In this document: piece after piece, positions 20,559 to 64,000 of the stretch
How the letters are laid out: each line of letters begins with the position of its first letter
Position numbering within the stretch: position 1 is the first letter of the stretch
Translations under genes and position numbers: made by a program
Source: Crambe crambe
Lineage: Eukaryota; Porifera; Demospongiae; Poecilosclerida; Crambeidae
Assembly (NCBI GenBank): GCA_963924555.1
Contig: OZ004583.1
Coordinates: forward strand, 2,327,501-2,391,500
Direction of reading: 5' to 3'
Length of the DNA stretch: 64,000 nucleotides
Notes under the pieces: generated by a model
Database searches by the model: none
The model's input: only the letters and a program-made list of their open reading frames with translations
What the model was told of the DNA's origin: nothing

Positions 20559-22760
20559 TTAAAATATTTGGAGTCTTTTATTACCACCATCACAAACATA
20601 CAACAAACCATCCTTATCAACATTCACTCCACGTGGACAAATAAAGTCACCTTCAGCATGACCACACTGTCCAAATGAGGTCACATGCTTCCCCTTGGTG
20701 GTGTATACTTCTATATTGTGTTTGTCCCAGGTGGCCACATAAACATATTCATCAGTTACACACACACCTTCAGGGTCACTCAACTCTTTCCTTCCAAATG
20801 AGTGGAGGACTTCACCTCTATTACTGAGGACTTGGATGCAAGGATTCTTGCTGATGACACTGACATACAAGTTACCATGTTTGTCGGAAGACATTAGATT
20901 GAATGTTCCTGTGCCTTCTTGATGAGAAACGATTTCCCTAACGTACTCCAGTTCTGTAGTGTATACCTTGATAGTACCATGATTATCACGTTCAGTCACC
21001 ACGACTTCATCTCCAACCACAGTCACACCTAGATGTCCAGACTGTTGTCCAACTCGTTTTGCAGTAACTTTGGTCATGTTCTTATTTGACTTGTAGATTG
21101 TACTACTGTTCATATCAACAAAGTAAATGTTGTCTTCTTTGTCCACTGCTACACTCCAGGGATTTTTGAACTTGTATTCTGATTGTTTGATGCTTCTCAG
21201 CTTCTTTCCCTCCTTATCCAACATCACCACATCTCCATCCCACTCGGTCACAATCATCTCTCCCTTTGAATTGAAGGCTACATCAGTTGGACCATTCAGT
21301 CCAGGGATAATCTTGACAGGCTTGCCCAGCTTACTTGGATGGATGGAGATAAACACAGGGAAGGGACTACTGGCTACTTCCTGGCCATTCACAGTGACAG
21401 TCAGTTCGTGACGTCCATGAACAGTGGGTGTGTACGAAATACGATATTCATTGCCTTCACTTCGATCGATGTTACATTTGACATTCGAATCATTCATCAG
21501 TGACTTCAATTGGCCAGTGACAGCACACTCTCGTTTAGTGCGTTTTCCATTAGTGAGTTTCGGTGTTAGGGAGAATTCACATTTTTTGTCTACTTCAGCA
21601 ATTTTGATTCCTTCACCAACTACTGTACACTTTGTAGGATCAATGCTAAGAGAAATTATCTTTGCTTTAGTCTGACAGAGCTTCTTCAGGTCTTCAGTAC
21701 AGCTCACCTCCACTCCTATGTCCACCTCCTCCACTGGATCCAGACTCCTCCCTTCTTTGCAATGCTCTTTGATCTCTCTGTCGATGCGACTCTTGATCTC
21801 AGCATGCATGCACATGACCTCATCTCTCGTCGAATGTTCCACACATTGTTCAGTGTATTCGATCACACTCTGGACGACTGCACAAGAAGTGGACAGACTC
21901 TTCTCCTGGCCAGAGAGATGCTCCAATTTCGTCTTCACTTTCAATGCAGCCTCTTTCAACAGTCCTTGCCTGCGATTTTGGAGGATCTTTTGGAGTTCAT
22001 CAAAAGAGCTGTTGATGTGGTCGGCCACAGAATCTCCCTGAGCCTCTATCTCGTGTTGTGTGGTTTGTATCTCCACCACAGCATCTGACAGCTCCACCTT
22101 CACTTTTCTTAAAGGCTCCAAATGTGCCACCAGCTTCTTCTTCATCTCGGGAGCACACTCTTTCACGAACTCGTAGTTGTGACCAAAATGATCTTTGACA
22201 GTGCAATCACGACAGATGAGAAGGTTGCAGTCAAAGCAATAGATCTTCAATGGTTCTTCATGCTTTTTACACATCTAAAGTGGCGATTCTTCCATAACAA
22301 TCTCTTTAGCTCCTTCTTTAAGCTCGTCTAGAGAAGCAATCTTGTGGCCAGCAAACACTTTCATTCGATGATGTGACTTGACACATTCTGTGCATATGAA
22401 CTGGGTACACTGTCGACAGAAGGCTTCGGCCTTGTCCCCAGAACACATCTCGCACTTGGCATCCACCTTACCATGAGCTCGTTCCAGCTTGGAGTGTAAC
22501 TCTTTCATACGATTGAGGAAAAAAGCTGTCGGGAGCTGATCTATATTGCCCTGGGGGAGGGTGGTGTCTTTACGACACTCGGGGCAAGAGAATGGCTTGT
22601 GGATACCAGTCCTCAGGGTCAACCTGTGGATGCACTGCTTGCAGTAGTAGTGGCAACAAGGAAGAACCTTGGGTTCTGTGTAGTGATCGTGACAGATGGC
22701 ACAGGTGATCTCCTTTTCAAGGTCTTCCACACTTTTCTCCACAACGTCCTTTTCAGCCAT
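20559..22760 (-). pseudogene. TRIM-NHL copy 1 with premature stop
   Basis: ATG at 22760. RING (CAICHDHYTEPKVLPCCHYYC...CPECRKD), B-box 1 (CEMCSGDKAEAFCRQC), B-box 2 (CKKHEEPLKIYCFDC), coiled coil, filamin/ABP280 domain (SIDPTKCTVVGEG...SPFPVFISI) and NHL repeats to QIF at 20562; single exon. A TAG at 22275-22277 replaces the CAG (Gln) of copy 2 between the B-boxes, leaving 161 residues of RING and B-box 1. The downstream frame stays open for 571 codons from an internal ATG, so the stop is recent or a sequencing error. The family (TRIM2/3/71-like) includes E3 ligases and RNA- or ligand-binding NHL proteins. Confidence 0.85.
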
Positions 22761-23107
22761 GTTGCAAGATGGTGAACTCAATACCAAACTAGGAGCTTAT
22801 TCGAGTAAGGAAAGTGGACAACTCCAATGGTAGCTGCAAGAATAAAAGAAAAGGGGTGGGTGCATTTCAAAATAGCCAGACGTTTACGAGACTACATTTC
22901 AAAAGGGACACCTAAGGCTTAGGATTCGGGGAATTTCTAAAGCTAGCTAGACAGCTAATTACCTAGGTAGAGGTAGTTGCTGCAAATCAGCAGTTGCTCA
23001 AAAGTTTGGCTAGGGTGGAGTTCTTGGGGGTTGGGTCGGTGTGCAGGTGATGTCAGCTGATCGCACGGAAGAAGAAACGTGATAGAAGGTCAAAGTTCTA
23101 GCAGTTT

Positions 23108-23600
23108 AAGTCTTCATGTCACCTTACATCGGTTTGCAGGACATTCTCCATGTGGATCAATCTGACCTGAAAGCTATCTCCCAGGGCGCCATATCGAGAG
23201 GTAGGTTACCATCTGGTTTGGAGGAGGAGGTGCCCAGTATATGCCCCACCACTGATTCCAGTGTGATATCTAGTGGCACTGATGAAGACTCAGTTGGTAA
23301 ACAAGGTTATGCTAGGCCTGGGACTGCTGGGAGGGACAATGTTATCATGTGATGTGGTGTGTTTCCTATTGTAGTTTGCTTTCTCATTCGGCTGTGGTTG
23401 CCAGGGAGTTGGGCCTTCCCACGGTAGTGGGTGTGTCAGGGGGACTAATGAAGTGTTTGAAGATGGGGATGAGAATTTTGTTGGACGCAGGCATGGGACG
23501 AGTCACCATCCTAGACAACCAGCAGGAAGATAATGCCACTGATAACCAAAACAAAATGAATGTCAAGGAAGACAAGACTTTGATGGAAACTGAAGCTTGA
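23108..23600 (+). pseudogene. PEPS-like copy with large internal deletion
   Basis: Starts with exon 2-type sequence (LQDILHVDQSDLKAISQG, RGRLPSGLEEEV, SSGTDEDSVG). At about 23,293-23,300 it jumps straight into the intron before the final exon (LLSHSAVVARELGLPTVVGV to METEA, stop at 23,600). All middle exons are missing. The first exon (GGKAHNLWELG) is also not found upstream. It is head to head with TRIM1, like the other copies. Confidence 0.75.
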
Positions 23601-23957
23601 AATGTTACAATCAGATTAATTAATTGATTTGCATAATTATATTCATAATTATAATCAATGTCATTTTTTTTCCATGAACAATAATTATGTAACACAATGC
23701 TGTAGCTACAATGGCAACCATTAAGATGAGTGTTCTGAAACAAAAATAGAATAATGCATGTGTTCACTGATTGCTTATAGTAAAGAGGTCATAATCATAA
23801 GAAAAATAATGTTTCATGTATTAATAACTATTATAATATTCACAGGAAGATAAGTGAATCATGATTGACAGGTACACAGTGTTTGTATCCATACCATTGT
23901 TCCATGCCATGTGATGTGAAATAGATTGTGTATGGATTATTATTACTTATGTACTTG

Positions 23958-24212
23958 TCATACATAAGTGGCACAGTTCAAATCTATCTCGTTTTCAGAA
24001 TCAGGAAATGGTGATTTCAGCCTTTCATGGACCAATCCTCCGATATTCATGGGACAACCACCAAGGAAGTGAGGGGATACAGTTTGATTTCTTTCACGTG
24101 GCAACACTGGCAAGTTAATCTGGTGATGATTCAGGCTCATCATGGGCATAGCAGTATTACTAACTGGTGTGGTCGGCTCTTTGGGGGCCAAGTGGCTGTA
24201 CTGTGTGTACTG
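23958..24212 (-). pseudogene. Receptor tail-exon relic 2
   Basis: Reads QYTQYSHLAPKEPTTPVSN...GGLVHERLKSPF...EIDLNCATYV on the minus strand, identical in kind to the last third of the receptor tail (45,024-45,699). Upstream exons are missing. Confidence 0.65.
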
Positions 24213-24259
24213 TGCTTTCTTTCTCCGCACATTAGTTCTAGCTACATATCAGCATTCTA

Positions 24260-24715
24260 GCTAGCTAAGATAGTCTATTTCCAAGAAAAGAACAACAATA
24301 CCTAACCGACTCATGATACCCACATCTACCTTATCAGAGGTGTTGGAAGCAAGATTAGATTGGTCAGGCCTGAAACTGCAATCCCCAGACCATTGAAGTT
24401 CTACAATTTACTATTAATTAGTATTCATGCATCATAGGACACTTTCTCAAGTTATTGATTGGTAGCCACATTAGTGATTAATAACTTTATTTAACTTGTT
24501 TTTCTTAAAATAATTATTGGTCAGGCCTGACTGGCCTTACCTGTTTGCCTATGCTTATATCCCAAGTGATCATTCCATAGCATTTATTGTGATGCAGTGA
24601 TATGTATGCCAGTTACCATCACTTTATTCAGGTGGTCACATACTCTATACATGTGGAGTAATAGTGGTCCCGCAGTCAGTTCCTAGTGCTAATATGATCA
24701 TAGTGGAAGTCTAAT
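24260..24715. other. Non-coding AT-rich spacer
   Basis: No ORF, exon homology or RNA gene was recognised. GGTCAGGCCTGA occurs twice (about 24,361 and 24,520), suggesting one more decayed repeat. Confidence 0.35.
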
Positions 24716-24845
24716 AAACCCCCTGCCTGGACTTTTATTCAATTTTTTATCATGCTTGATGATGGAACCCCCCTCCCCAGTCTCACCCCCCAAAAAAAGA
24801 AAAAAATCAGGTCTGGCTACGCGAGACTACTCCCCCCCCCCCAAA

Positions 24846-33539: not shown

Positions 33540-34560
33540 CCCACTGAGTCACAGTAAAACCTCCAAGAAAGAATATTCATTGGCTTTATTTGTTGATTAG
33601 TAACAAACAAGTGTGTGTGTTGATGTTTGCATGCTTACTTTTAACAGGAGCTCATATCTTCATTATACTACCTTGATTTAGCTCTTGTCTTTGAGAGCTT
33701 TCCAATGTTGTACTTAGTTATAACTTTACCCCCCCCCCCCCCCCCCCCCAATTAAATGTCAGCTATGATAGGAATATCAAAGGCCTCCTAAGTATGTGGT
33801 AATTTTAACCACTGAGGTCATGTCAAGTCTTAGAGGTAGTGAAATGAAAATGACTAAGAAATCATCTCTTTGATTGCAAAATAGCTGTGGAAGGAGCAGA
33901 AATAGAATATGTTCTTTTTCAGGACGTGCTATATAGACATTTAAAAATCAAAAACAGATATAGCTATTCGATTGTAACTTCATTTATAGGGAAATGCAGG
34001 GCATTGTGGCAAATGAAGCATGATGTCACCATATTCCAAAGGACAGAATTGGAAGAATGTACGAGATACGTCATAATTATATACATAGTAGCACTCTCTC
34101 ATTCAACCCCCTAGTGGTTTGCTTCGCAATTTATGGGTGCATGTGCTGAGGGTTAATGGTCCTTATTCCATCCCAAATATTTTTATTACTTGAATTATAC
34201 TAACGATAATGTACTCTTGGCCAGTAGAGCAAGTATTGAAGTTGTGTGTAATTTATTATAGCAGACTATTTAACTAGCTATTGTGTTTTATGTGCATGTT
34301 GAGGGTTAGCACTTCAGTGCTGTTCATTCCAGTAGTGAGCGATAGCGATCACAAGAAAGAGGACTGAATATCCAGGCCATGGTTGACAGCAGATTCAATA
34401 TCCATCCTATACAAACGAGAGTTTGAAGACCCTTACCATGATTTTAATTGTGATAATGAATAATAATTTCATATCTGTAAAATTCCTTTACATAAAATTA
34501 ATGATGTTTATAACTATAGTTAATAGTAGCATGTGTGCAAAAACTGAGTGCATTAAAATA
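33540..34560. other. Non-coding spacer with poly-C tract
   Basis: C run at about 33,729-33,750. From 34,140 the sequence parallels 26,850-27,010, then the stretch next to the 59-bp arrays (GAGGGTTAGCACTTCAGTGC at about 34,300). The minisatellite itself is absent here. No gene seen. Confidence 0.45.
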
Positions 34561-34563
34561 TTT

Positions 34564-35030
34564 GGAGTCTGTTATTATTACCATCACAAACATACAACAA
34601 ACCATCCTCATCAACATTCACTCCACGTGGATGATTAAAGTGACCTTCATCACTACCACACTGTCCAAATGAGGCCACATGCTCCCCCTTGGTGGTGTAT
34701 ACTTGTATATTGTGTTTGTTGAAATTGGCCACATAAACATATTCATCACTTCAGTTACACACACACCATGAGGGTCACTCAACTCCTTCCTTCCAAATGA
34801 GTGGAGGACTTCACCTCTATTACTGAGGACTTGAACACAAGGATTCTTGTTAACAACACTAACATACAGGTTACCATGTTTGTCAGAAGATAATTTGATC
34901 GAATGTTCCTGTGCCTTCTTGATGAGAAACGATTTCCCTAACGTACTCCAGTTCTGTAGTGCATACCTTGATAGTACCATGATTATTACATTCAGTCACC
35001 ATGACTTCATCTCCAACCACAGTCACATCG
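34564..35030 (-). pseudogene. TRIM-NHL fragment (last NHL blades)
   Basis: Minus strand reads KVYTTELEYVREIV-like sequence, SSDKHGNLYVSVVNKNPCVQ, GEVLHSFGRKELSDPHGVCV, a frameshift near 34,750, then HNIQVYTTKGEHVASFG and GVNVDEDGLLYVC. It is cut at about 35,030, where 44-bp-repeat-type sequence begins. RING to filamin parts are absent. Confidence 0.8.
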
Positions 35031-35159
35031 TATCGTACGGATGTGACGGACGTACGGACCCATTAGGACACCATTGTACTGAATTGTATTGTACTGAAGA
35101 TTAATAGGGACGCCCCTCTGATTAGGACACCATTGTACTGAAGATTAATACATTAATAA

Positions 35160-36000: not shown

Positions 36001-38202
36001 TTAAAATATTTGGAGTCTGTTATTATCATCATCACAAACATACAATAAACCATCCTTATCGACATTCACTCCACATGGATTATTAAAGTGACCTTCATCA
36101 TCACCATACTGTCCAAATGAGGTCACATGCTCCCCCTTGGTGGTGTATACTTCTATATTGTGGTTGTTGGAGTTGGCCACATAAACATATTCATCAGTTA
36201 CACACACACCTTCAGGGTCACTCAACTCTTTCCTGCCAAATGAGTGGAGGACTTCACCTCTATTACTGAGGACTTGAATGCAAGGATTCTTGTTAACAAC
36301 ACTGACATACAGGTTACCATGTTTGTCAGAAGACATTTGATCGAATGTTCCTGTGCCTTCTTGATGAGAAATGATTTCCCTAACGTACTCCAGTTCTGTA
36401 GTGTATACCTTGATAGTACCATGATTATCACGTTCAGTCACCATGACTTCATCTCCAACCACAGTCACACCTAGATGTCCAGACTGTCGTCCAACTCGTT
36501 TTGCAGTAACTTTGGTCATGTTCTTATTTGACATGTAGATTGTACTACTGTCCCTATCAACAAAGTAAATGTTGTCTTCTTTGTCCACTGCTACACTCCA
36601 GGGATGGTTGAACTTGTATTCTGATCGTTTGATGCTTCTCAGCTTCTTTCCCCCCTCCTTATCCAACATCACCACATCTCCATTCCACTTGGTCACAATC
36701 ATCTCTCCCTTTGAATTGAAGGCTACATCAGTTGGATAGTTCAGTACAGGGATGATCTTGACAGGTTTGCCCAGCTTACTTGGATGGATGGAGACGAACA
36801 CAGGGAAGGGACTACCGGCTACTTCCTGGTCATTCACAGTGACAGTCAGTTCATGACGTCTACGAACAGTGGGTGTGTATGAAATACGATATTCATTGCC
36901 TTCACTTCGATCGATGTTACACTTGACATTCGAATCATTCATCAGTGACTTCAATTGGCCTGTGACAGCACACTCTCGTTTAGTGCGTTTTCCATTAGTG
37001 AGTTTAGGTGTTAGGGAGAATTCACATTTTTTGTCGACTTCAGCAATTTTGATTCCTTCACCAACTACTGTACACTTTGTAGGATCAATGCTAAGAGAAA
37101 TTATCTTTGCTTTAGTCTGACAGAGCTTCTTCAGGTCTTCAGCACAGCTCACCTCCACCCCTATGTCCACCTCCTCCACTGGATCCAGACTCCTCCCTTC
37201 CTTGCAGTGCTCTTCAATCTCTCTGTCGATGCGACTCTTGATCTCAGCATGCATGCACATGACCTCATCTCTCGCCGAATGTTCCACACATTGTTCAGTG
37301 TATTCGATCACACTCTGGACGACTGCACAAGAAGTGGACAGACTCTTCTCCTGGCCAGAGAGATGCTCCAATTTCGTCCTCACTTTCAATGCAGCCTCTT
37401 TCAACAGTCCTTGCCTGCGATTTTGGAGGATCTTTTGGAGTTCATCAAAAGAACTGTTGATGTGGTCGGCCACAGAATCTCCCTGAGCCTCTATCTCATG
37501 TTGTGTGGTTTGTATCTCCACCACAGCATCTGACAGCTCCACCTTCACTTTTCTTAAAGGCTCCAAATGTGCCACCAGCTTCTTCTTCATCTCGGGAGCA
37601 CACTCTTTCACGAACTCGTAGTTGTGACCAAAATGATCTTTGACAGTGCAATCACGACAGATGAGAAGGTTGCAGTCAAAGCAATACATCTTCAATGGTT
37701 CTTCATGCTTTTTACACATCTGAAGTGGCGATTCTTCCATAACAATCTCTTTAGCTCCTTCTTTAAGCTCGTCTAGAGAAGCAATCTTGTGGCCAGCAAA
37801 CACTTTCATTCGATGATGTGACTTGACACATTCTGTGCATATGAACTGGGTACACTGTCGACAGAAGGCTTCGGCCTTGTCCCCAGAACACATTTCGCAC
37901 TTGGCATCCACCTTACCGTGAGCTCGTTCCAGCTTGGAGTGTAACTCTTTCATGCGATTGAGGAAGAAAGCTGTCGGGAGCTGATCTATGTTGCCCTGGG
38001 GGAGGGTGGTGTCTTTACGACACTCGGGGCAAGAGAATGGCTTGTCGATACCAGTCCTCAGGGTCAGCCTGTGGATGCACTGTTTGCAGTAGTAGTGGCA
38101 GCAAGGAAGAACCTTGGGTTCTGTGTAGTGATCGTGACAGATGGCACACGTGATCTCTTTCTCAAGGTCTTCCACACTTTTCTCCACGTCCTTTTCAGCC
38201 AT
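36001..38202 (-). CDS. TRIM-NHL copy 2, intact single-exon RING/B-box/filamin/NHL protein
   Basis: Start chosen at MAEKDVEKSVEDLEK (38202), since the other copies share this ATG while the upstream in-frame stretch is not conserved; about 733 aa. RING C3HC4 at about residues 19-60 (CAICHDHY...CPECRKD), B-box 1 at about 100-140, B-box 2 (CKKHEEPLKMYCFDC..LICRDC..H.GH) at about 155-195, coiled coil at about 200-330. A filamin-type Ig fold follows (about 355-460), then six NHL blades (PTDVAFNSKGEMIV, WSVAVDKEDNIYFVD, GVTVVGDEVMVTE, SSDKHGNLYVSVV, GVCVTDEYVYVA, GVNVDKDGLLYVCD). Architecture matches TRIM2/3/71. Inferred cytosolic E3 ubiquitin ligase whose NHL propeller binds a target. Head to head with PEPS2, sharing a gap of about 340 bp. 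Confidence 0.9.
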   Translation of the reverse strand: MAEKDVEKSVEDLEKEITCAICHDHYTEPKVLPCCHYYCKQCIHRLTLRTGIDKPFSCPECRKDTTLPQGNIDQLPTAFFLNRMKELHSKLERAHGKVDAKCEMCSGDKAEAFCRQCTQFICTECVKSHHRMKVFAGHKIASLDELKEGAKEIVMEESPLQMCKKHEEPLKMYCFDCNLLICRDCTVKDHFGHNYEFVKECAPEMKKKLVAHLEPLRKVKVELSDAVVEIQTTQHEIEAQGDSVADHINSSFDELQKILQNRRQGLLKEAALKVRTKLEHLSGQEKSLSTSCAVVQSVIEYTEQCVEHSARDEVMCMHAEIKSRIDREIEEHCKEGRSLDPVEEVDIGVEVSCAEDLKKLCQTKAKIISLSIDPTKCTVVGEGIKIAEVDKKCEFSLTPKLTNGKRTKRECAVTGQLKSLMNDSNVKCNIDRSEGNEYRISYTPTVRRRHELTVTVNDQEVAGSPFPVFVSIHPSKLGKPVKIIPVLNYPTDVAFNSKGEMIVTKWNGDVVMLDKEGGKKLRSIKRSEYKFNHPWSVAVDKEDNIYFVDRDSSTIYMSNKNMTKVTAKRVGRQSGHLGVTVVGDEVMVTERDNHGTIKVYTTELEYVREIISHQEGTGTFDQMSSDKHGNLYVSVVNKNPCIQVLSNRGEVLHSFGRKELSDPEGVCVTDEYVYVANSNNHNIEVYTTKGEHVTSFGQYGDDEGHFNNPCGVNVDKDGLLYVCDDDNNRLQIF

Positions 38203-45023: not shown

Positions 45024-48000
45024 TCATACATAAGTGGCACAGTTCAAATCTATCTCGTTTTCAGGAGATGGTGATTTCAGCCTTGCATGGACCAATCCTC
45101 CGATACTCATGGGACGACCACCAAGGAAGTGAGGGGATAGGGTTTGATTTCTTTCACGTGGCGATACTGGCAAGTTGATCTGGTGATGATTCGGGCTCAT
45201 CATGGGCATAGCGATATTACTAACTGGTGTGGTCGGCTCTTTGGGGGCCAAGTGGCTGTACTGTGTGTACTGGGAACAATCGGGATCTGTGTCTTCCGAA
45301 TAAGACTCAACAGTTTTCTTTTCAATGGAATTATCACTATCTTCATAGTTATACTCATTCACGATGTTATTAGTAGGAGAGAAAGCACCATGATCCGAGG
45401 GGATGGGAGTACTGGACTCCTGTTCACCATCCCAATTATGATCATTAGCAACAGGGTTCTCAAATGCCCTCCCTTGATTGTAAGCAGAGGCAGCGGAGTG
45501 AGAACGGGATCTGCTTTTGACTGTTTCCTCAAAGGAAGGAGGGTCAATGTAAGAGGGTGCTTGGATTAGCCTGCCATCTGATCCATAGGTAAAGCCGGAG
45601 GTGTAGGTGTAGTCAGTGCCTCCTCCAATCGAACTCTCTCCCTCCATCACCATGATGTCTGTCTCTGGTTTGGAACCAGTTGGAGAGGCTGAACTGAACC
45701 TACATTATTTTATAAAAATAGCAGAATTGATTACTTTCATCATTATTATGGTGATAAGACAAGTCTTTTAACAGTATAGAGTACAGCAACCTTTCCCTGA
45801 AACTCCCTCCCCCCTCCCCCAGCTATTATTGACTGAAAAGCCCCTCTGATTAAGACACTATTGTTAATAGGAACACCCCTCTGATTAGGACACCATTGTA
45901 CTGAAGATTAATAGGGACACCCTTCTGATTAGGATACCAGTGTACTGAAGATTAATAGGGACACCCCCTCTGATTATGACACTATTGTACTGAAAATTAA
46001 TAAGAGGACACCCAACACCATTGTACTGAAGATTAATAGGGACATCCCTCTGATTAGGACACCATTGTACTGAAGATTAATAGGGACACCCTTCTGATTA
46101 GGATACCAGTGTACTGAAGATTAATAGGGACACCCCCTCTGATTAGGACACCATTGTACTGAAGATTAATAGGGACACCCTTCTGATTAGGATACCAGTG
46201 TACTGAAGATTAATAGGGACACCCCCTCTGATTATGACACTATTGTACTGAAAATTAATAAGAGGACACCCAACACCATTGTACTGAAGATTAATAGGGA
46301 CATCCCTCTGATTAGGACACCATTGTACTGAAGATTAATAGGGACACCCTTCTGATTAGGATACCAGTGTACTGAAGATTAATAGGGACACCCCCTCTGA
46401 TTATGACACTATTGTACTGAAAATTAATAAGAGGACACCCAACACCATTATACTGAAGATTAATAGGGACACCCCTCTGATTAGGATACCATTGTACTGA
46501 AGATTAATAGGGACACTATTGTACTGCAAGTGTGTAGCATGCATCTATACATTTGCATTCATTATTATGTGAACTATTGTAACCATCACACGACTCAGTA
46601 CACCATGACTATAGTTAAGTTCATGAATAAAGAACTATGTAGGGGGAGTGGGGTTTCTCCTCCCCCAGGGCTCAGACACACCCACTTTCTCCCCTGAGAG
46701 TAAGGATATTCATTGCTAATGAGGCAGATCAAGTTACTACATACATAATGACCTTATAGAGTTACCACATCCATCCTATTCAAATCAACACATAGAGGGG
46801 AAATTCATTTGTTATTGGGTGTATCAGCTGTAAACCAACTCCACATTGGCACTGACTCTTTTCTGCTTAATTAAGGGCCTAAAATTTGCATACAGCTATT
46901 ATCTGAATAGGTGAACAAATTTACGTCTGGATTTATTGATACCTATTCTAGAACTTCATTTAGCAAGCCATGTAGTCACCACTAATGTTGCCATAGGAAT
47001 AAATTAAAAGATATCAACAAAAGCTCACGTAAATTTGTAAAAGATAGTAATAAGAAATGGCTGACCAAAAATCAGCCACTAAACTCAAGTATTTGGTGAG
47101 AAATAGTTTTTTATACTTTGAGAGTGATGAAGCTTCATATCTTGGGTAAGAATTGTCCTTTCTCCTTCATATTTGGTATGTGTGGTAGTGTTATAGTGTG
47201 TCTTAGTCATGTGGAGTTTCAAGTCCTTAGCATTAGTAGCTTTGGAGATTGGCTTCCTTAGCAACCATATGTCTGACCACCCTTAACTACATAAACATTA
47301 GTACTGTATTTTGGCCCACACAATCTTTGGTCATAATATTGATATGATATGCTTTGCACATTTATAGTAGCATTGGTTCATTAATACCACAGGTGTACAT
47401 GAGCTCCCCTACTTTCATGTAGGTGGGTTGGTTAGTATGTTCATTGGATCATTGTTATTGACACATGCCAAGTGCTAACTTACGCTCTATTGTGTCTGCT
47501 CCTGTAGCTGGTCATGGCATCTTCAGTGAGGTTAGTGTCCGTGGCTTCAGTGCCCACAACTGCCATGCCTTTCCCAAAGTACGCAGAGTTACGAACTACA
47601 ATCATAGGAATGAACATAGACAAGTCACCAGCAACTAGTATGGCATTGGTCGTTAAAAATATCCCTACATGTAGGGAAATGTAAAGCATTGCGGTGAGCG
47701 AAGGTTTACCATATCCCATTGGATGGAACCAGAAGAATGTATGAAATAAATATAACCAGTAGCACCCCTCATTCGACTCCATAGGTGGCTTGCTTCAAGG
47801 GGGAAAATTTTGGGAATTTTTTCAAGCATAAAATTTCCCCATTAAACCATTGGTATTATTATGATTATTATCTCATTTACTTACCATGATATCTGCCAGC
47901 AGTTTATTTTTCCCCCTGCGTGCTTTACGTACGATGAAGATGCTGACCATTACCACACACACCAGTAGGACTAACACAATCACAACCATCAGAATAATGA

Positions 48001-49944
48001 AGCCAATCGATTCTGAAAATATCACATTTGGTTCAATCAAAATCCCAGAAACTGATGTCACAGCTTCTGAAGTCGGAGAGAAGGGACCTCTTCCAGCTGA
48101 TGTTTCAGCTGCAACTTTAATCAGAAATCTACAGCAAAAAAGAAGTGATTTTATTGCTAATATAGTTATGTAATAGGTAGCATCAAAACTAGATGACAGG
48201 GGGTTCCTTATCATACTCTAAAATTAATTACTTTTGTAACTTGGGCAAGTTGGAAATGATGATGAAAGTGTTTCCACTGTTGGTAGACACAGTGTCGAAC
48301 ATGTTTTGAGGATTACTTGCAAGCCGGTACATAACGACATAGTTAATGATCATCCCTCTTGGAACAGATGGAGCCTGGATAGTGAAAATATCATAGAAGA
48401 AAGTAATCTATCAATCCAACTACTATCTTGGTTAATAGTATGTGGTAAGTTTATTATAGCAGTATTGGAGCAAGATATAATTATATAATTACATTCCAAG
48501 TGATGTTAAGAGATGTATCAGTAGGGGCACTCCCTCCCACGTTCGTTGGAGAATTTGGAATGCCAGTTCCAGTTCTGACACGCCCAGGCTCGCTCAGTGC
48601 CTGCCTCCCATCAGTATAGATGGCAACTACACGAACGCTGTAATAAGCGAATGCCATTAGGTCTTGGTTACTGATTTCAAGTGAAGTGACGGCATTGATT
48701 GAGCTACTGCTCAGACGTGTCCAGGAAGAAGGCAAGAGTTCTACTTCTATGGCATAGTTACTGAGCATGGACTGAGTTCCCATGAAGATCCATTGGATGC
48801 GGATGGAAGAGGGGGAGGAGCTATTTAGAGCAGTAATGACAGGGGCAACAGGAAGTTCTGCAGAGAGTGATATAGCATGCAATAATGTGAATAGGCAGAC
48901 TATGTGTGTATGCATTAGATAATCTGGAGAGCTTATTTATTTGATCCTTACAATAATTATTTTGTGCTCACCTGTAACTCTCATGTTAGTACTGGTACTT
49001 CTCACAGTAGGTGCTCTGAGACCACCCTCTGAAGTGGTCTCCACCACACACTGGTACACTCCGCTATCATTGTGTCCGACTCTATCTATTGTTAAATTTC
49101 CTGAGGTGTTTCGATTGGTGAATCGGATGTGCTCGTTGTCAAGGACCAGTGGACTGCCATCTTTAGTCCAGGAGTAAGTAATGCTTGCTCCTGCATGGTG
49201 AGTAGCTTCGCAAGGTAAAACGACAAGTTCAGTGTCTACTTCTCTGGTTACAACAGTTGCCACTGTAAAAAAAAAAATAGATTAAATAACATTGTTTGTG
49301 TACCATAATTCTGGGTATGATACTGTATGGAACTTTTTTACTACCTGTTCCTGTTAAGTAACTTTTCTAAGTCTTCTATTCGATAATTATTGTCCCTTTT
49401 TGTTCAACTAGGGCACCAGAGAGTTTACAATTAGAACCTTTATGCAACTAAATAAGGTAGTTGCACTTTTTAGCTTTTATGATATGCTTTATCAACATGC
49501 ACAGCTTCTCATGAGAGTGCTTGACCACAACTAGCCAGCGTTCTTTCCCTCATGGAAATGTATGCAGCAACAAAGCTGAGTTCAATGCACTGTAACCACT
49601 TGGTAATGAGGATGTTAAAAAAAAATTCCTTAGGTTTTGATGTTAGAAAGTGCTAATCGTTATCTCCACCAACAGGATATCAAGTCATACTTTATTGTTA
49701 GTTTCCTACTAAATAAACGTGGGAAAAACAGGTGAAAAAACAGCACCACTTAAGCAAACTGGCTCTCTTACTCCAGAATTTGAGTCTAGACTAATCAAAG
49801 TGAGATTCAGATGATGAAGTCTTAACATCAGTACATGTCAGTCTCAGTAAAGTGTAGTAAACAGGTACGGGCAGTTGTCTAGGAAACAGGGAATTCCCCA
49901 AACTATGGTTTATATTAAATAATTAGATTTGAAGGATATGAGAG

Positions 49945-50020
<76 letters not shown>

Positions 50021-50410
50021 CTTGGAAAAAATTCAATTTTAAGCGTAGCTAGGATAATAATGTATGAGAACAGAATAGCTATAGAAACACTGTTGAACAA
50101 CGTGGAAACTTACCAATTGTAGTGAGTGTAGTAATTGTCTCATCAGATCCTACAGTACTACCATCCGGAAGTGAGTTCCTGACTTGACATCTGTAGCTTC
50201 CCTCTGAACTGCCTTCCACATTACGAATGAGCAGTGTACCTGGAGTGCCCACATCAAAAACGCTCCCGGTCTCCAAAGGAGTGTCGGCTTTGAACCACCT
50301 ATACGTTGGAGGTGGGGCCCCGAGACCAGAGCAACCCATGGAGAAAGGCATACCTCTAAAGGCAAGCTGAGAGGAAGGGAGCTGACGAGTGATAGAAGCG
50401 GCGATGGCTA
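45024..50410 (-). CDS. Ig/FN3 single-pass membrane receptor (5' end not found)
   Basis: Exons on the minus strand: Ig domain 50407-50114 (Cys in SMGCSGLG, W in YRWFK, GSYRCQV); Ig domain 49262-48972 (LPCEATH, SWTKDG, DSGVYQCVV); FN3 48857-48493; FN3 continued 48374-48232; stalk plus membrane helix 48128-47885 (IGFIILMVVIVLVLLVCVVM, then KARRGK). The tail exon 45699-45024 is about 220 aa, acidic and Ser/Tyr-rich, with DYTYTSGFTYG, PSYIDPPSF, ENPV and YSHLAP. It ends CATYV, a class I PDZ-ligand-like C-terminus (T-x-V). No signal peptide exon was seen upstream. Inferred adhesion or signalling receptor, convergent with PEPS2. Only this copy has the ectodomain; the other blocks keep just the tail. 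Confidence 0.8.
45830..46530 (-). repeat. ~44-bp minisatellite in receptor intron
   Basis: Units read CTGATTAGGACACCATTGTA plus CTGAAGATTAATAGGGACAC, with variant units (GATTATGACACTATTG; AAGAGGACACCCAACACC) in a repeated multi-unit order. The same unit makes the arrays at 61,650-62,090 and, as two units, at about 35,080-35,150. Confidence 0.9.
46531..47884. other. Large receptor intron, mostly featureless
   Basis: No strong exon. A stretch at about 47,498-47,580 (minus strand GKGMAVVGTEATDTNLTEDA, followed by a GTAAGT donor) could be an extra exon, because a similar piece is attached to the tail relic at 17.9 kb. No clean acceptor is visible. Confidence 0.4.
49948..50018 (+). repeat. (GA)n microsatellite
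   Basis: About 35 GA dinucleotides without interruption, within an intron of the receptor. A Leu/Ser repeat ORF on the minus strand is an artefact of it. Confidence 0.95.
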
Positions 50411-51548
50411 GAGGATGAAAGAAAGGGAGATGAATGGAAATAAAGCTGTTTTTCTACCGTACATATGCTGTTATTCTACTATGCTTCCTATAAGCAACAC
50501 AACTGCTAAAAATAACTACAAGTAAAAATGTTTTTAAAACAATAACAACGACTACAAGTAGCTAAAATGTTAAAACAACAACAATTACAAGAAAAAACAA
50601 GAAAAAGCAACAACAAACAATACACAACTAGCTCCAGTGCACATTTGATTGTGGCTATTTATTGTGCCACTTATGATGTCTCTATTGTTTCATGCCTAAT
50701 TGATTTTAGGTGTACATTTTATCTATGTCAACATTGAATTACCACACTGGGTATGTTGGAAGATACTCAAAATATCATTAATAGGTATCTTGCAATAAGT
50801 TTCCATGCATGCTATCCATGGAATAGGAGGTTTGGTAATGTCATAGGGGCCACTGGCCTAAGATACGGGTGACCCGCACACATAGGCCACCCCTAGTACA
50901 TACAATATTATAGAGGCCAGCCTGGCCTGAATATTATAGTAAAAGACCTACAGCCTGAGCCAGCAAGGCCCAAGCCTGCACAGCTAAAGGGGATTACCCA
51001 CGTCACAGACTCAATACTAGGTGAAGGTAATCAAAATACTATTATCTTACATTCTATAATCTACACCTGTGTATAATAATACAATCCTTTAATGAGACCA
51101 CCCTAAATGACCTATTTCAGCTATTTTAATCAGACCACCCTAAAATGAGACTACTTCTCTAGTCTACCCTGTCCTATAACACCTATTCCAGCTATTTGCA
51201 ATCTCCCTAAGGCTACTTGTTCCTGGCCCATTTTTTGGTGGTCACAGTTCATGTGTCTCAGACTGGTTAAATGAATGACACAGTGATTTAGCAATGTGCA
51301 CATACCTCCATTCCATGTTACATGAAGAGAATTCCAATGTACCAAATATTTGAGTCACTATCCACATCATGTTAGTATGTGCACACAAGCCAAGATTATA
51401 CTTAGGTCTGGTGGGAATGAGGTTTAATGTTTTCCCCAATGCACATTTATTTAAGTGATCACCACTCTCTGATCAGACAAAAGGCTAACCATTGTCAAAG
51501 ATGTGAATTTACATGCTCATTTGGAAATTAACTATTGGCTGATTATAG
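50411..51548. other. Upstream region of receptor, no gene found
   Basis: AT-rich sequence with CAACAA-rich stretches (about 50,520-50,640) and several GGCCTG-type short repeats near 50,930. The receptor's first exon(s) should lie here or beyond, but no convincing signal peptide was found. Confidence 0.35.
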
Positions 51549-52356: not shown

Positions 52357-54874
52357 TTAAAATATTTGGAGTCTTTTATTACACCAATCACAAACATACA
52401 ACAAACCATCCTTATCAACATTAACTCCACATGGAGAATTAAAGTCACCTTCATCATGACCAAACTGTCCAAATGAGGTCACATGCTCCCCCTTGGTGGT
52501 GTATACTTCTATATTGTCATTGTTGGAGTTGGCCACATAAACATATTCATCAGTTACACATACACCATAAGGTGAACTCAACTCTTTCCTGCCAAATGAG
52601 TGGAGGACTTCACCTCTATTATTGAGGACTTGAATGCAAGGATTCTTGTTAATGACACTGACATACAGGTTACCATGTTTGTCAGAAGATATTCGATGGA
52701 ATGTTCCTGTGCCTTCTTGATGAGAAACGATTTCCCTAACGTACTCCAGTTCTGTAGTGTATACCTTGATAGTACCATGATTAATACGTTCAGTCACCAT
52801 GACTTCATCTCCAACCACAGTCACACCTCAATGTCCAGACTGTTCTCCAACTCGTTTTGCAGTAACTTTGGTCATGTTCTTATTTGACTTGTAGATTGTA
52901 CTACTGTTCAAATCAACAAAGTAAATGTTATCTTCTTTATCCACTGCTACACTCCAGGGATTTTTGAACTTGTATTCTGATCGTTTGATGCTTCTCAGCT
53001 TCTTTCCCTCCTTATCTAAAATCACCACATCTCCATTCCACTCGGTCACAATCATCTCTCCCTTTGAATTGAAGGCTACATCAGTTAGATAGTTCAGTCC
53101 AGGGATGATCTTGACAGGCTTGCCCAGCTTACTTGGATGGATGGAGACAAACACAGGGAAGGGACTACCAGCTACTTCCTGGCCATTCACAGTGACAGTC
53201 AGTTCATGACGTCCACGAACAGTGGGTGTGTACGAAATACGATATTCATTGCCTTCACTTCGATCAATGTTACACTTGACATTCGAATCATTCATCAGTG
53301 ACTTCAATTGGCCTGTGACAGCACACTCTCGTTTAGTGCATTTTCCATTAGGTATTACGACTTCTGCAATTTTGATTCCTTCACCAACTACTGTACACTT
53401 TGTAGGATCAATGCTAAGAGAAATTATCTTTGCTTTAGTCTGACAGAGCTTCTTCAGGTCTTCGGCACAACTCACCTCCACCCCTATGTCCACCTCCTCC
53501 ACTGGATCCAGACTCCTCCCTTCCTTGCAGTGCTCTTCAATCTCTCTGTCGATGCGACTCTTGATCTCAGCATGCATGCACATGACCTCATCTCTCGTCG
53601 AATGTTCCACACATTGTTCAGTGTATTCGATCACACTCTGGACGACTGCACAAGAAGTGGACAGATTCTTCTCCTGGCCAGAGAGATGCTCCAACTTCTC
53701 CTTCACCTTCAATGCAGCCTCTTTCAACAGTCCTTGCCTGCGATTCTCAAGGATCTTTTGGAGTTCATCAAAAGAGCTATTGATGTGGTCGGCCATAGAA
53801 TCTCCCTTAGCCTCCATCTCATGTTGTGTGGTTTGTATCTCCTCCACAGCATGTGACAGCTCCACCTTCACTTTCCTCAAAGGCTCCAAATCTGCCATCA
53901 GTTTCTTCTTCATCTCAGGAGCAGACTTCTTTACGAACTCATGGTTGTGACCTGAATGGTCCTTGATGGTGCAATCACGACAGATGAGAAGGTTGCAGTC
54001 AAAGCAATACATCTTCATCGGTTCGTCATGCTCTTTACACATCTGAAGTGGCGATTCTTCCATAACAATCTCTTTAGCTCCTTCTTTAAGCTCATCTAAA
54101 GAAGCAACCTTGTGGCCAGCAAACACTTTCAACTTATCATGCAACTTGACACATTCTGTGCATATGAAATAGGTACACTGTCGACAGAAGGCTTCGGCTT
54201 TGCCCCCAGAACACATTTCGCACTTGGCGTCCACCTTACCGTGAGCTCGTTCCAGCTTGGAGTGTAACTCTTTCATGCGATTGAGGAAGAAAGCTGTCGG
54301 GAGCTGATCTATGTTGCCCTGGGGGAGGGTGGTGTCTTTACGACACTCGGGGCAAGAGAATGGCTTGTCGATACCAGTCCTCAGGGTCAACCTGTGGATG
54401 CACTGCTTGCAGTAGTAGTGGTAGCTAGGCCTGAGCTAATTATTCAGGAATAATTTTTTGAATAATAGGTAGCTTCTTTCAGAAATTGAATAATAGGCTC
54501 TAACTGAGACATCTTTGATGCTTCAGTACAATAATCGATGAGTTAATGAACTATGTAATAGTTATGACTGTCAATCCTGTCAATGTACATCCTTAATAAT
54601 GATCCTTATTACTTGTCTCTAGCCACATTGGTCAGTCAGTCAGAGTGTTGTCATCACTCTGTTTTGAATAATAGGGGGCTGTCTCTTGAATAATAGGGAG
54701 CAAAATGTTGAATAAAATACTTGAATAATGGGCATCTATATATGAATAATTAGCTCAGGGCTAGTGGTAGCAAGGAAGAACCTTGGGTTCTGTGTAGTGA
54801 TCGTGACAGATGGCACACGTGATCTCCTTCTCGAGGTCTTCCACACTTTTCTCCACAACGTCCTTTTCAGCCAT
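52357..54874 (-). pseudogene. TRIM-NHL copy 3, MITE in RING and stop in NHL
   Basis: Same ATG (54874) and domain order as copy 2. The RING is split after HYYCKQC-type sequence by a 340-bp MITE (54425-54764). Downstream the frame is open from 54,390 to a TGA at 52,828-52,830, where copy 4 has CGA (Arg): a C-to-T change in the third NHL blade. The frame then continues open to 52,357. An in-frame deletion shortens the filamin region (KIAEVVIPNGKC instead of KIAEVDKKCEFSLTPKLTNGKC). It keeps its own set of NHL loop residues. Confidence 0.85.
54425..54764. mobile_element. 340-bp MITE inside TRIM3 RING
   Basis: Ends CTAGGCCTGAGCTAATTATT and, reversed, CTAGCCCTGAGCTAATTATT (21 of the first 22 bases agree). 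Flanked by TGGTAG at 54419-54424 and 54765-54770 (match extends to TAGTGGTAG). The interior carries repeated TTGAATAATAGG motifs. Copies 1 and 2 show the empty site. Confidence 0.85.
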
Positions 54875-60536: not shown

Positions 60537-60897
60537 AATGTTACAATCACAATATTATCAGATTGCTTAAATTATTTGCTTCACATTATTTTTTTATAAT
60601 CAATGTCGTGAACAATGTAACACAATGCTGTACGATGGCAATATACAACTGAGATGAGTGTTCTGAAACAAAAATAGAATAAATGTTGCATGTGTTCACT
60701 GATTGCTTATAGTAAAGAGGTCATAATCACAAGAAAAATAATGTTTCATGTATTAATAACTATTATAATATTCACAGGAAGATAAGTGAATCATGATTGA
60801 CAGGTACACAGTGTTTGCATCCATACCATTGTTCCATGCCATGTGATGTGAAATAGATTGTGTATGGATTATTATTACAATGTTTCTTATGTACTTG

Positions 60898-61570
60898 TCA
60901 TACATAAGTGGCACAGTTCAAATCTATCTCGTTTTCAGGAGATGGTGATTTCAGCCTTTCATGGACCAATCCTCCGATACTCATGGGATGACCACCAAGG
61001 AAGTGAGGGGATACAGTTTGGTTTCTTTCACGTGGCAACACCGGCAAGTTGATCTGGTGATGGTTCGGGCTCATCATGGGCATAGCGATATTACTAACTG
61101 GTGTGGTCGGCTCTTTGGGGGCCAAGTGGCTGTACTGTGTGTACTGGGAACAATCGGGATCTGTGTGTTCGGAATAAGACTCAACAGTTTTCTTTTCAAT
61201 GGAATTATCACTATCTTCATAGTTATACTCATTCATGATGTTATTAGTAGGAGAGAAAGCACCACGATCCGAGGGGATGGGAGTACTGGACTCCTGTTCA
61301 TCATCCCAATTATGATTAATAGTGACAGGGTTCTCAAATGTCCTCCCTTGACTGTAAGCAGAGGCAGCGGAGTGAGAACGGGATCTGCTTTTGACTGTTT
61401 CCTCAAAGGAAGGAGGGTCAATGTAAGATGTAAGATGTAAGATGTAAGAGGGTGCTTGGATTAGCCTGCCATCTGGTAAAGCCAGAGGTGTAGGTGTAGT
61501 CAGTGCCTCCTTCAATCAAACTCCCCCCCTCCATCACCATGGTGTCCATCTCCGGTTTGGAGGCGAAACT
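60898..61570 (-). pseudogene. Receptor tail-exon relic 3
   Basis: Nearly full-length copy of the tail exon (to CATYV), but missing 8 bases (TATGGATC) after TYTSGFT, so frameshifted, and with a short TACATCTTACATCT expansion nearby. No membrane or Ig/FN3 exons follow upstream. Convergent with PEPS3 as in the intact block. Confidence 0.75.
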
Positions 61571-61649
61571 GAACCTACATTTTTAAAAATGCAGAATTGA
61601 TTACTTCTATCAATTATGCTAATAAGAAGTCTTTTAGATATAGATACAT

Positions 61650-62090
61650 CATTGTAGGAACACCCCTCTGATTAGGACACCATTGTACTGAAGATTAATA
61701 GGGACGCCCCTCTAATTAGGACACCATTGTACTGAAGATTAATAGGGACACCCCTCTGATTAGGACACCATTGTACTGAAGATTAATAGGGACGCCCCTC
61801 TGATTAGGACACCATTGTACTGAAGATTAATAGGGACGCCCCTCTGATTAGGACACCATTGTACTGAAGATTAATAGGGACGCCCCTCTGATTAGGACAC
61901 CATTGTACTGAAGATTAATAGGGACGCCCCTCTGATTAGGACACCATTGTACTGAAGATTAATAGGGACGCCCCTCTGATTAGGACACCATTGTACTGAA
62001 GATTAATAGGGACACCCCTCTGATTAGGACACTATTGTACTGAAGATTAATAGGGACGCCCCTCTGATTAGGACACTATTGTACTGTACG
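61650..62090 (-). repeat. 44-bp minisatellite, about 10 copies
   Basis: Very regular GGGACGCCCCTCTGATTAGG plus ACACCATTGTACTGAAGATT plus AATA units. Lies just downstream of TRIM4's 3' end, the position held by the 59-bp array in the other blocks. Confidence 0.95.
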
Positions 62091-62250
62091 ATGGCAATAT
62101 ACAAATGATTTTAATTTCTTGTTCATCACCCTTTGACCCCTTCTATTATTGTAATAATGAATAATAATTTCATATCTGTAAAAATTCCTTAACATAAATT
62201 AATGATGTTTATAACTATAGTTAATAGCATGTGTGCAAAAACTGAGTGTG

Positions 62251-64000
62251 TTAAAATATTTGGAGTCTGCTATTATCAGCATCACAAACACACAACAAAC
62301 CATCCTTATCAACATTCACTCCACATGGACACTTAAAGTGACCTTCATCACTACCACGCTGTCCAAATGAGGTCACATGCTCCCCCTTGGTGGTGTATAC
62401 TTCTATATTGTGTTTGTTGGAGTTGGCCACATAAACATATTCATCAGTTACACACACACCGCATGGGTCACTCAACTCTTTCCTGCCAAATGAGTGGAGG
62501 ACTTCATCTCTATTACTGAGGACTTGAACACAAGGATTCTTGTTAATGACACTGACATACAGGTTACCATGTTTGTCAGAAGACATTTGATTGAATGCTT
62601 CTTGACGAGAAACGATTTCCCTAACGTACTCCAGTTCTGTAGTGTATACCTTGATAGTACCATGATTATCACGTTCAGTCACCATGACTTCATCTCCAAC
62701 CACAGTCACACCTCGATGTCCAGGCTGTTGTCCAACTCGTTTTGCAGTAACTTTGGTCATGTTCTTATTTGACTTGTAGATTGTACTACTGTCCAAATCA
62801 ACAAAGTAAATGTTGTCTTCTTTGTCCACTGCTACACTGTAAGGGACTTTGAACTTGTATTCTGATCGTTTGATGCTTTTCAGCTTCTTTCCCATCTTAT
62901 CCAACATCACCACATCTCCAAAATACTCGGTCACAATCATCTCTCCCTTTGAATTGAAGGCTACATCAGTTGGACTATTCAGTCCAGGGATGATCTTGAC
63001 AGGCTTGCCCAGCTTACTTGGATGAATGGAGATAAACACAGGGAAGGGACTACCAGCTACTTCCTGGTCATTCACGGTGACAGTCAGTTCATGACGTCCA
63101 CGAACAGGGGGTGTGTACGAAATACGATATTCATTGCCTTCACTTCGATCAATGTTACACTTGACATTCGAATCATTCATCAGTGACTTCAATTGGCCAG
63201 TGACAGCACACTCTCGTTTAGTGCATTTTCCATTAGTGAGTTTCGGTGTTAGGGAGAATTCACATTTTTTGTCGACTTCAGCAATTTTGATTCCTTCACC
63301 AACTACTGTACACTTTGTAGGATCAATGCTAAGAGAGATTATCTTTGCTTTAGTCTGACAGAGCTTCTTCAGGTCTTCAGTACAGCTCATCTCCACCCCT
63401 ATGTCCACCTCCTCCACTGGATCCAGACTCCTCCCTTCCTTGCAGTGCTCTTTAATCTCTCTGTCGATGCGACTCTTGATCTCAGCATGCATGCACATGA
63501 CCTCGTCTCTCGTCGAATGTTCTACACATTGTTCAGTGTATTCGATCACACTCTGGACGACTGCACAAGAAGAGGACAGACTCTTCTCCTGGCCAGAGAG
63601 ATGCTCCAACTTCTCCCTCACTTTCAATGCAGCCTCTTTCAACAGTCCTTGCCTGCGATACTCAAGTATCTTTTGGAGTTCATCAAAAGAGCTGTTGATG
63701 TGGTCGGCCACAGAATCTCCCTTGGCCTCTATCTCGTGTTGTGTGGTTTGTATCTCCTCCACAGCATGTGACAGCTCCACCTTCACTTTTCTTAAAGGCT
63801 CCAAATCTGCAATCAGCTTCTTCTTCATCTCGGGGGCACACTCCTTCACAAATTCATGGTTGTGACCTGAATGGTCCTTGATGGTGCAATCACGACAGAT
63901 GAGAAGGCTGCAGTCAAAGCAATACATCTTCATTGGTTCGTCATGCTTTTTACACATCTGAAGTGGCAATTCTTCCATAACAATCTCTTTAGCTCCTTCT
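62251..64000 (-). CDS. TRIM-NHL copy 4 (5' end off window)
   Basis: Open frame from the right edge, through B-box 2 (CKKHDEPMKMYCFDCSLLICRDC), coiled coil, filamin domain and NHL blades to QIF at 62,254. RING and B-box 1 should lie beyond 64,000. NHL loops differ from the other copies (TEYFGD, KFKVPYSV, FGQRGSDEGHFKCPCG). A three-residue deletion shortens the HQEGTGTF loop to RQEAF. No stop or frameshift seen. Confidence 0.88.
   Translation of the reverse strand, partial: EGAKEIVMEELPLQMCKKHDEPMKMYCFDCSLLICRDCTIKDHSGHNHEFVKECAPEMKKKLIADLEPLRKVKVELSHAVEEIQTTQHEIEAKGDSVADHINSSFDELQKILEYRRQGLLKEAALKVREKLEHLSGQEKSLSSSCAVVQSVIEYTEQCVEHSTRDEVMCMHAEIKSRIDREIKEHCKEGRSLDPVEEVDIGVEMSCTEDLKKLCQTKAKIISLSIDPTKCTVVGEGIKIAEVDKKCEFSLTPKLTNGKCTKRECAVTGQLKSLMNDSNVKCNIDRSEGNEYRISYTPPVRGRHELTVTVNDQEVAGSPFPVFISIHPSKLGKPVKIIPGLNSPTDVAFNSKGEMIVTEYFGDVVMLDKMGKKLKSIKRSEYKFKVPYSVAVDKEDNIYFVDLDSSTIYKSNKNMTKVTAKRVGQQPGHRGVTVVGDEVMVTERDNHGTIKVYTTELEYVREIVSRQEAFNQMSSDKHGNLYVSVINKNPCVQVLSNRDEVLHSFGRKELSDPCGVCVTDEYVYVANSNKHNIEVYTTKGEHVTSFGQRGSDEGHFKCPCGVNVDKDGLLCVCDADNSRLQIF

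Follow-up and report, generated by a model that had tools for sequence, protein, structure and literature searches.

Known TRIM repertoires and TRIM-NHL proteins

The closest known systems to the gene family described here are the finTRIM (ftr), btr and trim35/hltr families of teleost fish, for which the accessible parts of two studies describe TRIM repertoires under selection in their B30.2 domains (PMC2657112; PMC3137616). According to the same excerpts, finTRIMs were found as virus-induced transcripts and B30.2 is their variable domain; in the present family, by contrast, the variable domain is an NHL propeller that follows a filamin domain. TRIM5α, as outlined in one of these sources (PMC3137616), resembles the family in joining an E3 body to loops under positive selection that determine what it binds. 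The family also resembles LIN41 in its filamin-NHL arrangement and in the face that would bind the ligand. TRIM5α differs in carrying a SPRY domain and in being a single restriction factor. In nematodes and plants, the expanded F-box and MATH-BTB adapters likewise form large families of ubiquitin ligases whose substrate-binding domains are under selection; they are, however, Cullin adapters and not RING ligases, and use other binding folds.

TRIM-NHL proteins such as TRIM71/LIN41, TRIM2, TRIM3, Brat, Mei-P26 and Thin are encoded by few genes that are kept between species, unlike the family here. A survey of TRIM proteins confines the fast-evolving group to vertebrates and describes a second group, with TRIM32 among its members, as conserved (Sardiello et al., 2008). 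In human TRIM-NHLs, too, differences are greatest near the top opening of the propeller (PMC9634614). For zebrafish LIN41, the partial structural account names 14 RNA-contacting residues, which lie on the upper face.

A large tandem TRIM-NHL family in Crambe crambe

The window, a stretch of 64,000 nucleotides from the sponge Crambe crambe, contains the four TRIM-NHL copies and the NHL fragment reported by the initial annotation, all on the minus strand, and the NHL loop motifs quoted there are identical on re-reading of the sequence. Copy 2 (36001..38202) is an intact single open frame of 733 amino acids with RING, two B-boxes, filamin and NHL domains and, presumably, the coiled coil expected from TRIM order. 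In copy 1 (20559..22760) the stretch between the B-boxes contains an in-frame TAG (22275-22277). Copy 3 (52357..54435) has an in-frame TGA at 52828-52830, inside the NHL domain; its RING is broken upstream of 54435, and its filamin region shows a gap of ten codons together with altered residues. The stops in copies 1 and 3 and the RING and filamin defects of copy 3 had gone unrecorded in the annotation. Copy 4 (62251..63999) is cut by the window edge; in the genome it is locus L007, whole, with one open frame of 768 amino acids. The fragment (about 34553..35050, ends approximate) holds only NHL sequence and is frameshifted.

The family extends far beyond the window. Searches of the 143-Mb genome with two protein queries scored 124 distinct places, 113 of them without an in-frame stop (stops in 6 of 61 places for one query and 5 of 63 for the other); this is a large, tandemly duplicated TRIM-NHL family, mostly in single open frames. 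RING, B-box, filamin and NHL follow one another on one chain, the order of filamin-bearing TRIM-NHL proteins. In Pfam, copy 2, L016 and L029 pass the cut-off for B-box, filamin and NHL, and L016, L029 and L063 pass it for RING; the RING of copy 2 (24.7 vs 25.2) and the B-box of L063 (22.6 vs 24.1) fall just below. NHL repeat units number six by motif reading, with six Pfam NHL stretches in L063 and one in copy 2. The zinc-binding residues are kept, the RING Cys/His columns being at least 90% conserved and the seven Cys/His of the second B-box invariant over 121 rows. No B30.2/SPRY domain, the mark of a finTRIM, appears in the Pfam results for the four proteins scanned.

Duplication and exchange are both visible in the family. 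The array to which the window belongs (C5) repeats at a spacing of 56,848 bp, and two pairs of its 10-kb stretches are nearly identical, one at 100% and the other at 99.7% over 9,076 bases, which would reflect either recent duplication or an assembly duplicate. From each of three same-score pairs one member was therefore dropped. Against assembly error as the source of the copies, 15 of 120 fetched proteins match loci at 100% while lying on contigs of different lengths, and hence occur in another assembly as well; no claim is made on gene presence or absence between assemblies, given a protein database clustered at 90% identity. Two copies, L019 and P0051, are chimeric, with NHL and body exchanged between copies.

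Variation is concentrated on one predicted face of the propeller

The NHL propeller of copy 2 spans 36004..36783 on the minus strand (residues 474-733). Its d-a and b-c loops lie, respectively, at 36730..36741 (488-491) and 36682..36687 (506-507) in blade 1, 36598..36609 (532-535) and 36550..36555 (550-551) in blade 2, 36472..36483 (574-577) and 36427..36432 (591-592) in blade 3, 36331..36342 (621-624, repeat alignment uncertain) and 36292..36297 (636-637) in blade 4, 36211..36222 (661-664) and 36166..36171 (678-679) in blade 5, and 36073..36084 (707-710) and 36025..36030 (725-726) in blade 6.

Differences between copies concentrate at five positions per blade, around a proline and just after an aspartate. 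These positions (P-2, P-1, P+1, D+1 and D+2 in each blade) make up a set of 30 sites, written down after the site lists of clusters A to D, described below, had been seen; its blade 4 positions were revised once. All 14 LIN41 contacts named in the partial account fall at one of these five positions. The contacts were looked up afterwards, and the set agrees with them.

Across the four window copies, 24 of the 30 face positions are variable in amino acid, compared with 27 of 230 elsewhere in the NHL and 52 of 442 in the body, which bears out the proposal that NHL differences recur at the same spots of each repeat. Nor are the variable sites scattered over both faces, the pattern that the initial annotation named as contrary to its reading: mean pairwise difference in the window's own cluster is 0.58 at the 30 sites assigned to the upper face and 0.05 in loops that we take, from general propeller topology, to be on the opposite face, an assignment that uses the LIN41 contacts, sequence alignment and that topology. 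Ser, Asn, Arg, Tyr and Trp are frequent at the face positions, Trp making up 6.1% of face residues vs 0.1% of the remaining NHL. The pattern repeats in a distant subfamily (C9) and in other assemblies, where 27 of the 40 most variable positions belong to the set (81 proteins). Between assemblies, comparison of 14 protein pairs places 33 of 269 differences at the 30 sites; P0004/L010, P0020/L023 and P0021/L027 (26, 34 and 12 differences) have none there.

Probable positive selection on the NHL domain

Codon analyses used four clusters, A (C5, the window's own), B, C and D, together with the C9 subfamily; nine of 61 loci were left out (L002, L005 and L009; L051 and L054, which are incomplete; and L058-L061, which have no NHL). 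Comparison of models M1a and M2a gave 2ΔlnL values for the NHL domain of 113, 62, 147 and 69 in A, B, C and D, and for the body of 6, 2, 11 and 6, the cluster C body value (10.9) being nominally significant too by chi-square. M8 against M8a gave 113 for the NHL of cluster A. Sites with posterior above 0.9 fall inside the 30-site set in 14 of 16 cases in A (Fisher 3e-13; site 622 rests on the uncertain blade 4 alignment), 6 of 7 in B, 15 of 23 in C and 7 of 10 in D. Independently of the set, 10 of the 16 A sites recur as selected sites in at least one of B, C and D (p 7e-7).

At the fixed sites, ω with shared dS is 5.9, 2.0, 4.6 and 1.7 in A, B, C and D (star trees similar) and 3.8 in C9; dN/dS is above 1 in all five groups. 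With local dS, the stricter test, it stays above 1 in A (2.6), C (2.2), D (1.9) and C9 (4.0), whereas in cluster B it drops to 0.96, in the range that the initial annotation named as contrary to its reading. On a star tree, the local-dS test for cluster D falls short of significance (LRT 2.4). Selection gains weak support from counts made without a tree, in which disjoint pairs were compared at sites chosen in other clusters: pN/pS is 1.06-1.41 (Fisher p 0.058-0.41). The family combines many gene copies with positive selection at the presumed ligand positions, as a recognition repertoire would, cluster B falling short in the local-dS form.

Alternative explanations

LIN41/Brat-like RNA-binding regulators may have split into many RNA specificities, which would make this a regulatory and not a defence family. 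We consider this unlikely, although the varying positions are the LIN41 RNA contacts and the NHL sequence, which matches solved NHL domains, has TRIM71 chains as its nearest solved structures by profile. Among 52 copies, net charge summed over the 30 sites ranges between -5 and +9, against the large basic patch described for LIN41 in the excerpt available. Most LIN41 contacts are also, in the accessible part of that study, identical across species (Kumari et al., 2018); the reverse holds here, where their equivalents are among the protein's most variable positions, and the conserved RNA contacts of a TRIM71/LIN41 orthologue are lacking.

Hypermutation local to the loop codons, or frequent gene conversion there, with no selection for new binding, is a distinctly improbable account of the whole pattern. 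Compared with the remaining codons, face codons in A, B and C show 2.2-2.6 times as much silent change (ML trees), and a locally raised rate of change therefore accounts for part of the signal there. For codons of A whose amino acid is unchanged, third-position difference falls from 0.101 in the set to 0.079 in codons no more than two away and 0.048 beyond that; the third codon position nearly matches the first two in variability in B (0.275) and D (0.375), and domain exchange is visible between copies. Against this, local dS ratios are 0.95 in C9 and 0.88 in D, with local-dS ω above 1 in both, and codon positions 1, 2 and 3 vary at 0.375, 0.306 and 0.214 in A and at 0.376, 0.308 and 0.175 in C. 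Targeted mutagenesis was given low odds on these grounds, since most changes in A and C affect codon positions 1 and 2, and dS is not raised in C9 and D. Null simulations on the NHL of A reached 2ΔlnL of at most 4.6 in 24 clonal and 11.2 in 24 recombinant runs; on these simulations and the star trees, recombination was rejected as the sole source of the site-model signal.

Relaxed constraint on redundant copies with drifting surface loops is very unlikely: surface loops tend to be under weaker constraint than strands and a few places carry stops, but site ω exceeds 1 with shared dS in every group, other-face loops are far less variable, and most scored places are free of in-frame stops.

A proposed diversified recognition face on a constant body

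We favour, at a probability of about 0.6, a near-constant body with an NHL domain diversified by positive selection for ligand recognition by each copy, probably as a defence repertoire; site models, ω and the contrast between faces support the diversified ligand face on a constant E3 body first suggested for the window copies. The effector body of RING, B-boxes and filamin is nearly constant, while positive selection would have diversified the NHL residues that form the ligand-binding upper face. Each copy would most likely recognise a different molecule through that face, and the bound molecule may be ubiquitinated, or a signal started, if the putative E3 activity is real. Tandem duplication and exchange of NHL and body between copies would supply the variants, and the germline set would form an intracellular recognition repertoire, with defence as the probable reason for selection. 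The best reading by analogy is that the family works like fish finTRIMs, but on a β-propeller, and the same comparison suggests an innate recognition repertoire with a putative immune role.

Animals without antibodies need other routes to recognise many targets inside cells, and this gene set looks like inherited recognition proteins shaped by natural selection. Tentatively, at somewhat less than even odds, more than 100 and perhaps several hundred NHL propellers make up an invertebrate germline set that serves as an intracellular recognition repertoire, with about 30 contact positions on one face, a fixed E3 body and shuffling between NHL and body. If true, such a large selected invertebrate NHL repertoire would break the division of Sardiello et al. 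(2008) and would be the propeller counterpart of the fish B30.2 repertoire. It would also name about 30 positions per protein for testing; the contact map from a solved complex makes ligand hunting and face swaps between paralogues directly testable.

TRIM-NHL Copies in the Window and the Genome

Contig C5, one of 119 in a genome of 143 Mb, contains the window, whose minus strand carries four TRIM-NHL copies and one fragment. Copy 2 is a single open frame of 733 residues with a RING (scoring slightly under the Pfam cut-off), two B-boxes, a filamin domain and an NHL domain by Pfam. Copies 1 and 3 each contain a single in-frame stop, the RING of copy 3 is also interrupted, and copy 4, truncated by the window edge, has an open frame in the genome. 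Comparison of the four copies shows variable residues at 24 of the 30 positions assigned to the ligand face, 27 of 230 elsewhere in the NHL and 52 of 442 in the body (the rest of the protein), in agreement with the initial annotation, which had described variable NHL loops on a constant body.

Further genome copies were collected, as also proposed there. A search from copy 2 scored 61 places among 586 first-look candidates, a count that takes in loci L058-L061 (C10, C10, C5, and C6), where RING to filamin are present and the open frame stops before the NHL. With L063, a distant member on C9, 63 places were scored among 616 candidates. Judged by coordinates, no place appears in both lists, so 124 were observed in total; they form arrays on many contigs, and in-frame stops occur in 6 of the 61 and 5 of the 63. 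The NHL profile alone gave 150 scored places among 1503 candidates. L063, L016, and L029 have the same Pfam domains as copy 2. A tandem repeat with a spacing of 56,848 bp (C5:2264870-2365705) extends into the window. Two pairs of 10-kb stretches from it are 100% identical and 99.7% identical over 9,076 bases, respectively, and it is either a recent duplication or an assembly duplicate. Three equal-score locus pairs in C5 lie 56,848 bp apart; if the repeat is an assembly duplicate, there are three fewer distinct genes.

An Ig/FN3 receptor-like gene (window 45027-50453, minus strand) is interleaved with the TRIM-NHL array. Its two Ig exons, FN3 exon, exon bearing a long hydrophobic segment and tail exon are, we infer, parts of a single gene; the tail exon is repeated beside other copies (60901-61515 and 23961-24248). 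The window also holds tandem arrays with units of 59 bp (17822-20400), 92/78 bp (11642-13095), and 44 bp (61567-62174), and two plus-strand open frames, alike by eye and with no Pfam match (3000-3551 and 8548-9183).

Variation Probably Concentrates on One Face of the Propeller

Each of six blades contributes five of the 30 positions: P-2, P-1 and P+1 relative to the repeat Pro, and D+1 and D+2 relative to the Asp. When the set was drawn up, the site lists were already known for clusters A-D, the four locus groups used for codon work (A being nine C5 copies), and it is post hoc for all four. Kumari et al. (2018; PMC5908797) describe 14 RNA-contacting residues of zebrafish LIN41 on the side of the propeller opposite filamin, its upper face. 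On alignment to the LIN41 chain, 14 of 14 fall on these five per-blade places; since they were looked up only after the set was fixed, its identity with ligand contacts is not post hoc, though the set remains so for A-D. Loops that we take, from general propeller topology, to lie on the opposite face have 48 sites with data. Mean pairwise amino-acid difference at the 30 sites, in these loops and elsewhere in the NHL is 0.58, 0.05, and 0.09 in A; 0.49, 0.18, and 0.18 in B; 0.56, 0.05, and 0.11 in C; and 0.69, 0.27, and 0.34 in D. With faces assigned in these two ways, the variation appears to concentrate on one face and not to scatter over both, as had been anticipated. All six blades vary, the first loop of blade 4 weakly in B, C, and D.

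Ser, Asn, Arg, Asp, Tyr, Lys, Trp, and Cys are common among face residues, with Trp at 6.1% versus 0.1% elsewhere in the NHL; Val, Ile, and Leu are scarce, which is less telling because the rest of the NHL includes buried strands. The net charge of the 30 sites ranges from -5 to +9. An RNA-binding face, the alternative to many kinds of target, seems less likely: judged from the residues, this charge spread would fit many target kinds better than one RNA class.

A protein database search scored 8000 candidates and gave 1900 matches, of which 120 were analyzed. Thirty-nine of the 120 match the 52 loci at 84-100%, are probably from the same species, and were set aside; the remaining 81, with best matches of 56-65%, probably come from other species. 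For the 81, mean entropy amounts to 2.97 bits at the 30 sites, compared with 1.18 for the other NHL positions and 0.94 for the body, and the set supplies 27 of the 40 positions that vary most across the entire protein. Within four groups of 10, 4, 3, and 3 proteins, the members of each coming from contigs of equal length, pairwise difference is 0.59-0.66 at the 30 sites, 0.12-0.21 for the other NHL positions and 0.06-0.11 for the body.

NHL and body can also be found in different combinations. Locus L019 has an L020-like body (88%) and an NHL nearer to L021, L026, and L028 (79-80%) than to L020 (52%); database protein P0051 has an L043-like body and an L053-like NHL. Across 14 protein pairs between assemblies, which may not be orthologues, 33 of 269 differences fall at the 30 sites (12 of 47 in P0009/L016, 10 of 51 in P0018/L020). 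Three pairs, P0021/L027, P0004/L010, and P0020/L023, differ at 12, 26, and 34 residues and at none of the 30, so faces can stay fixed while bodies change.

Probable Selection at the Putative Ligand Face

Codon site models were run in our own Python implementation on DNA covering part of the family. For the NHL, 2ΔlnL between M1a and M2a is 113, 62, 147, and 69 in A, B, C, and D, with M2a ω of 9.3, 6.0, 8.5, and 4.4 for 9, 4, 12, and 8% of codons. These values are far beyond the neutral range simulated on the NHL of A, where the maximum was 4.6 in 24 clonal runs and 11.2 in 24 runs with four segments on different trees. Body values (6.1, 2.3, 10.9, and 6.0) are inside the recombinant null range, although a chi-square test makes that of C nominally significant. 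Of the sites whose posterior exceeds 0.9 (under M8 in A and M2a in B, C, and D), 14 of 16, 6 of 7, 15 of 23, and 7 of 10 fall within the set. Without use of the set, 10 of the 16 A sites recur among the 31 sites selected in at least one of B, C, and D (p 7e-7); pairwise, the A-D and B-D overlaps are no greater than chance.

With one synonymous rate shared across the NHL, ω at the 30 sites is 5.9, 2.0, 4.6, and 1.7 in A-D (star trees: 6.9, 2.3, 4.8, and 1.6); the remaining NHL codons give 0.39-0.54. With a local rate, ω at the 30 sites is 2.6, 0.96, 2.2, and 1.9 (LRT against ω 1: 11.1, 0.0, 5.2, and 6.7; star trees: 14.4, 0.8, 7.5, and 2.4). The predicted dN/dS above 1 at variable positions therefore holds in all four clusters under shared dS, and under local dS in A, C and, weakly, D; B fails. 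When sites are borrowed from other clusters and counted on disjoint pairs, pN/pS is 1.06-1.41, not significant, compared with 0.43-0.57 for the remaining NHL.

In the distant C9 subfamily (five NHLs), 29 positions of the same classes were placed by hand once the alignment had been seen; 51 of 262 NHL columns vary, 21 of them in this set (Fisher 3e-11), and ω there is 3.8 with shared dS (LRT 36.5) and 4.0 with local dS (LRT 9.4). Local hypermutation or gene conversion at loop codons, without selection for new binding, is improbable as the source of the variation. In its favour, B and D are highly variable at third codon positions too, and in A, B, and C the face codons show 2.2-2.6 times as much silent change as the remaining NHL codons; neither D nor the C9 subfamily shows such a rise (ratio of set to rest 0.95 in C9).

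A Probable Set of Diversified Ligases

The TRIM group that includes TRIM32 is described as conserved by Sardiello et al., and in the survey of Marin (2012) few TRIMs of mammals, fly, and worm carry an NHL. A figure of recognition-receptor architectures in the sponge Halichondria panicea includes NHL repeats among the domains. The finTRIMs of fish, as described in PMC2657112, are the nearest parallel. No report of a diversified NHL repertoire was found among the matches listed from open-licence PMC papers, a coverage outside which most subscription papers fall.

TRIM ligases dimerize, bind the target through the C-terminal domain and add ubiquitin through the RING. In the Crambe proteins, assumed to work likewise, a putative target would be bound through the NHL face and then ubiquitinated via the RING. 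Because the set is post hoc for A-D and third positions are so variable in B and D, we put the probability of a constant E3 body with an NHL ligand face diversified by positive selection slightly lower, at about 0.60, and that of hypermutation slightly higher, though still improbable. Defence is the usual cause of selection of this kind, and by analogy may be its reason here. Diversifying the face alone would yield a set of ligases with different targets, probably an intracellular defence repertoire.
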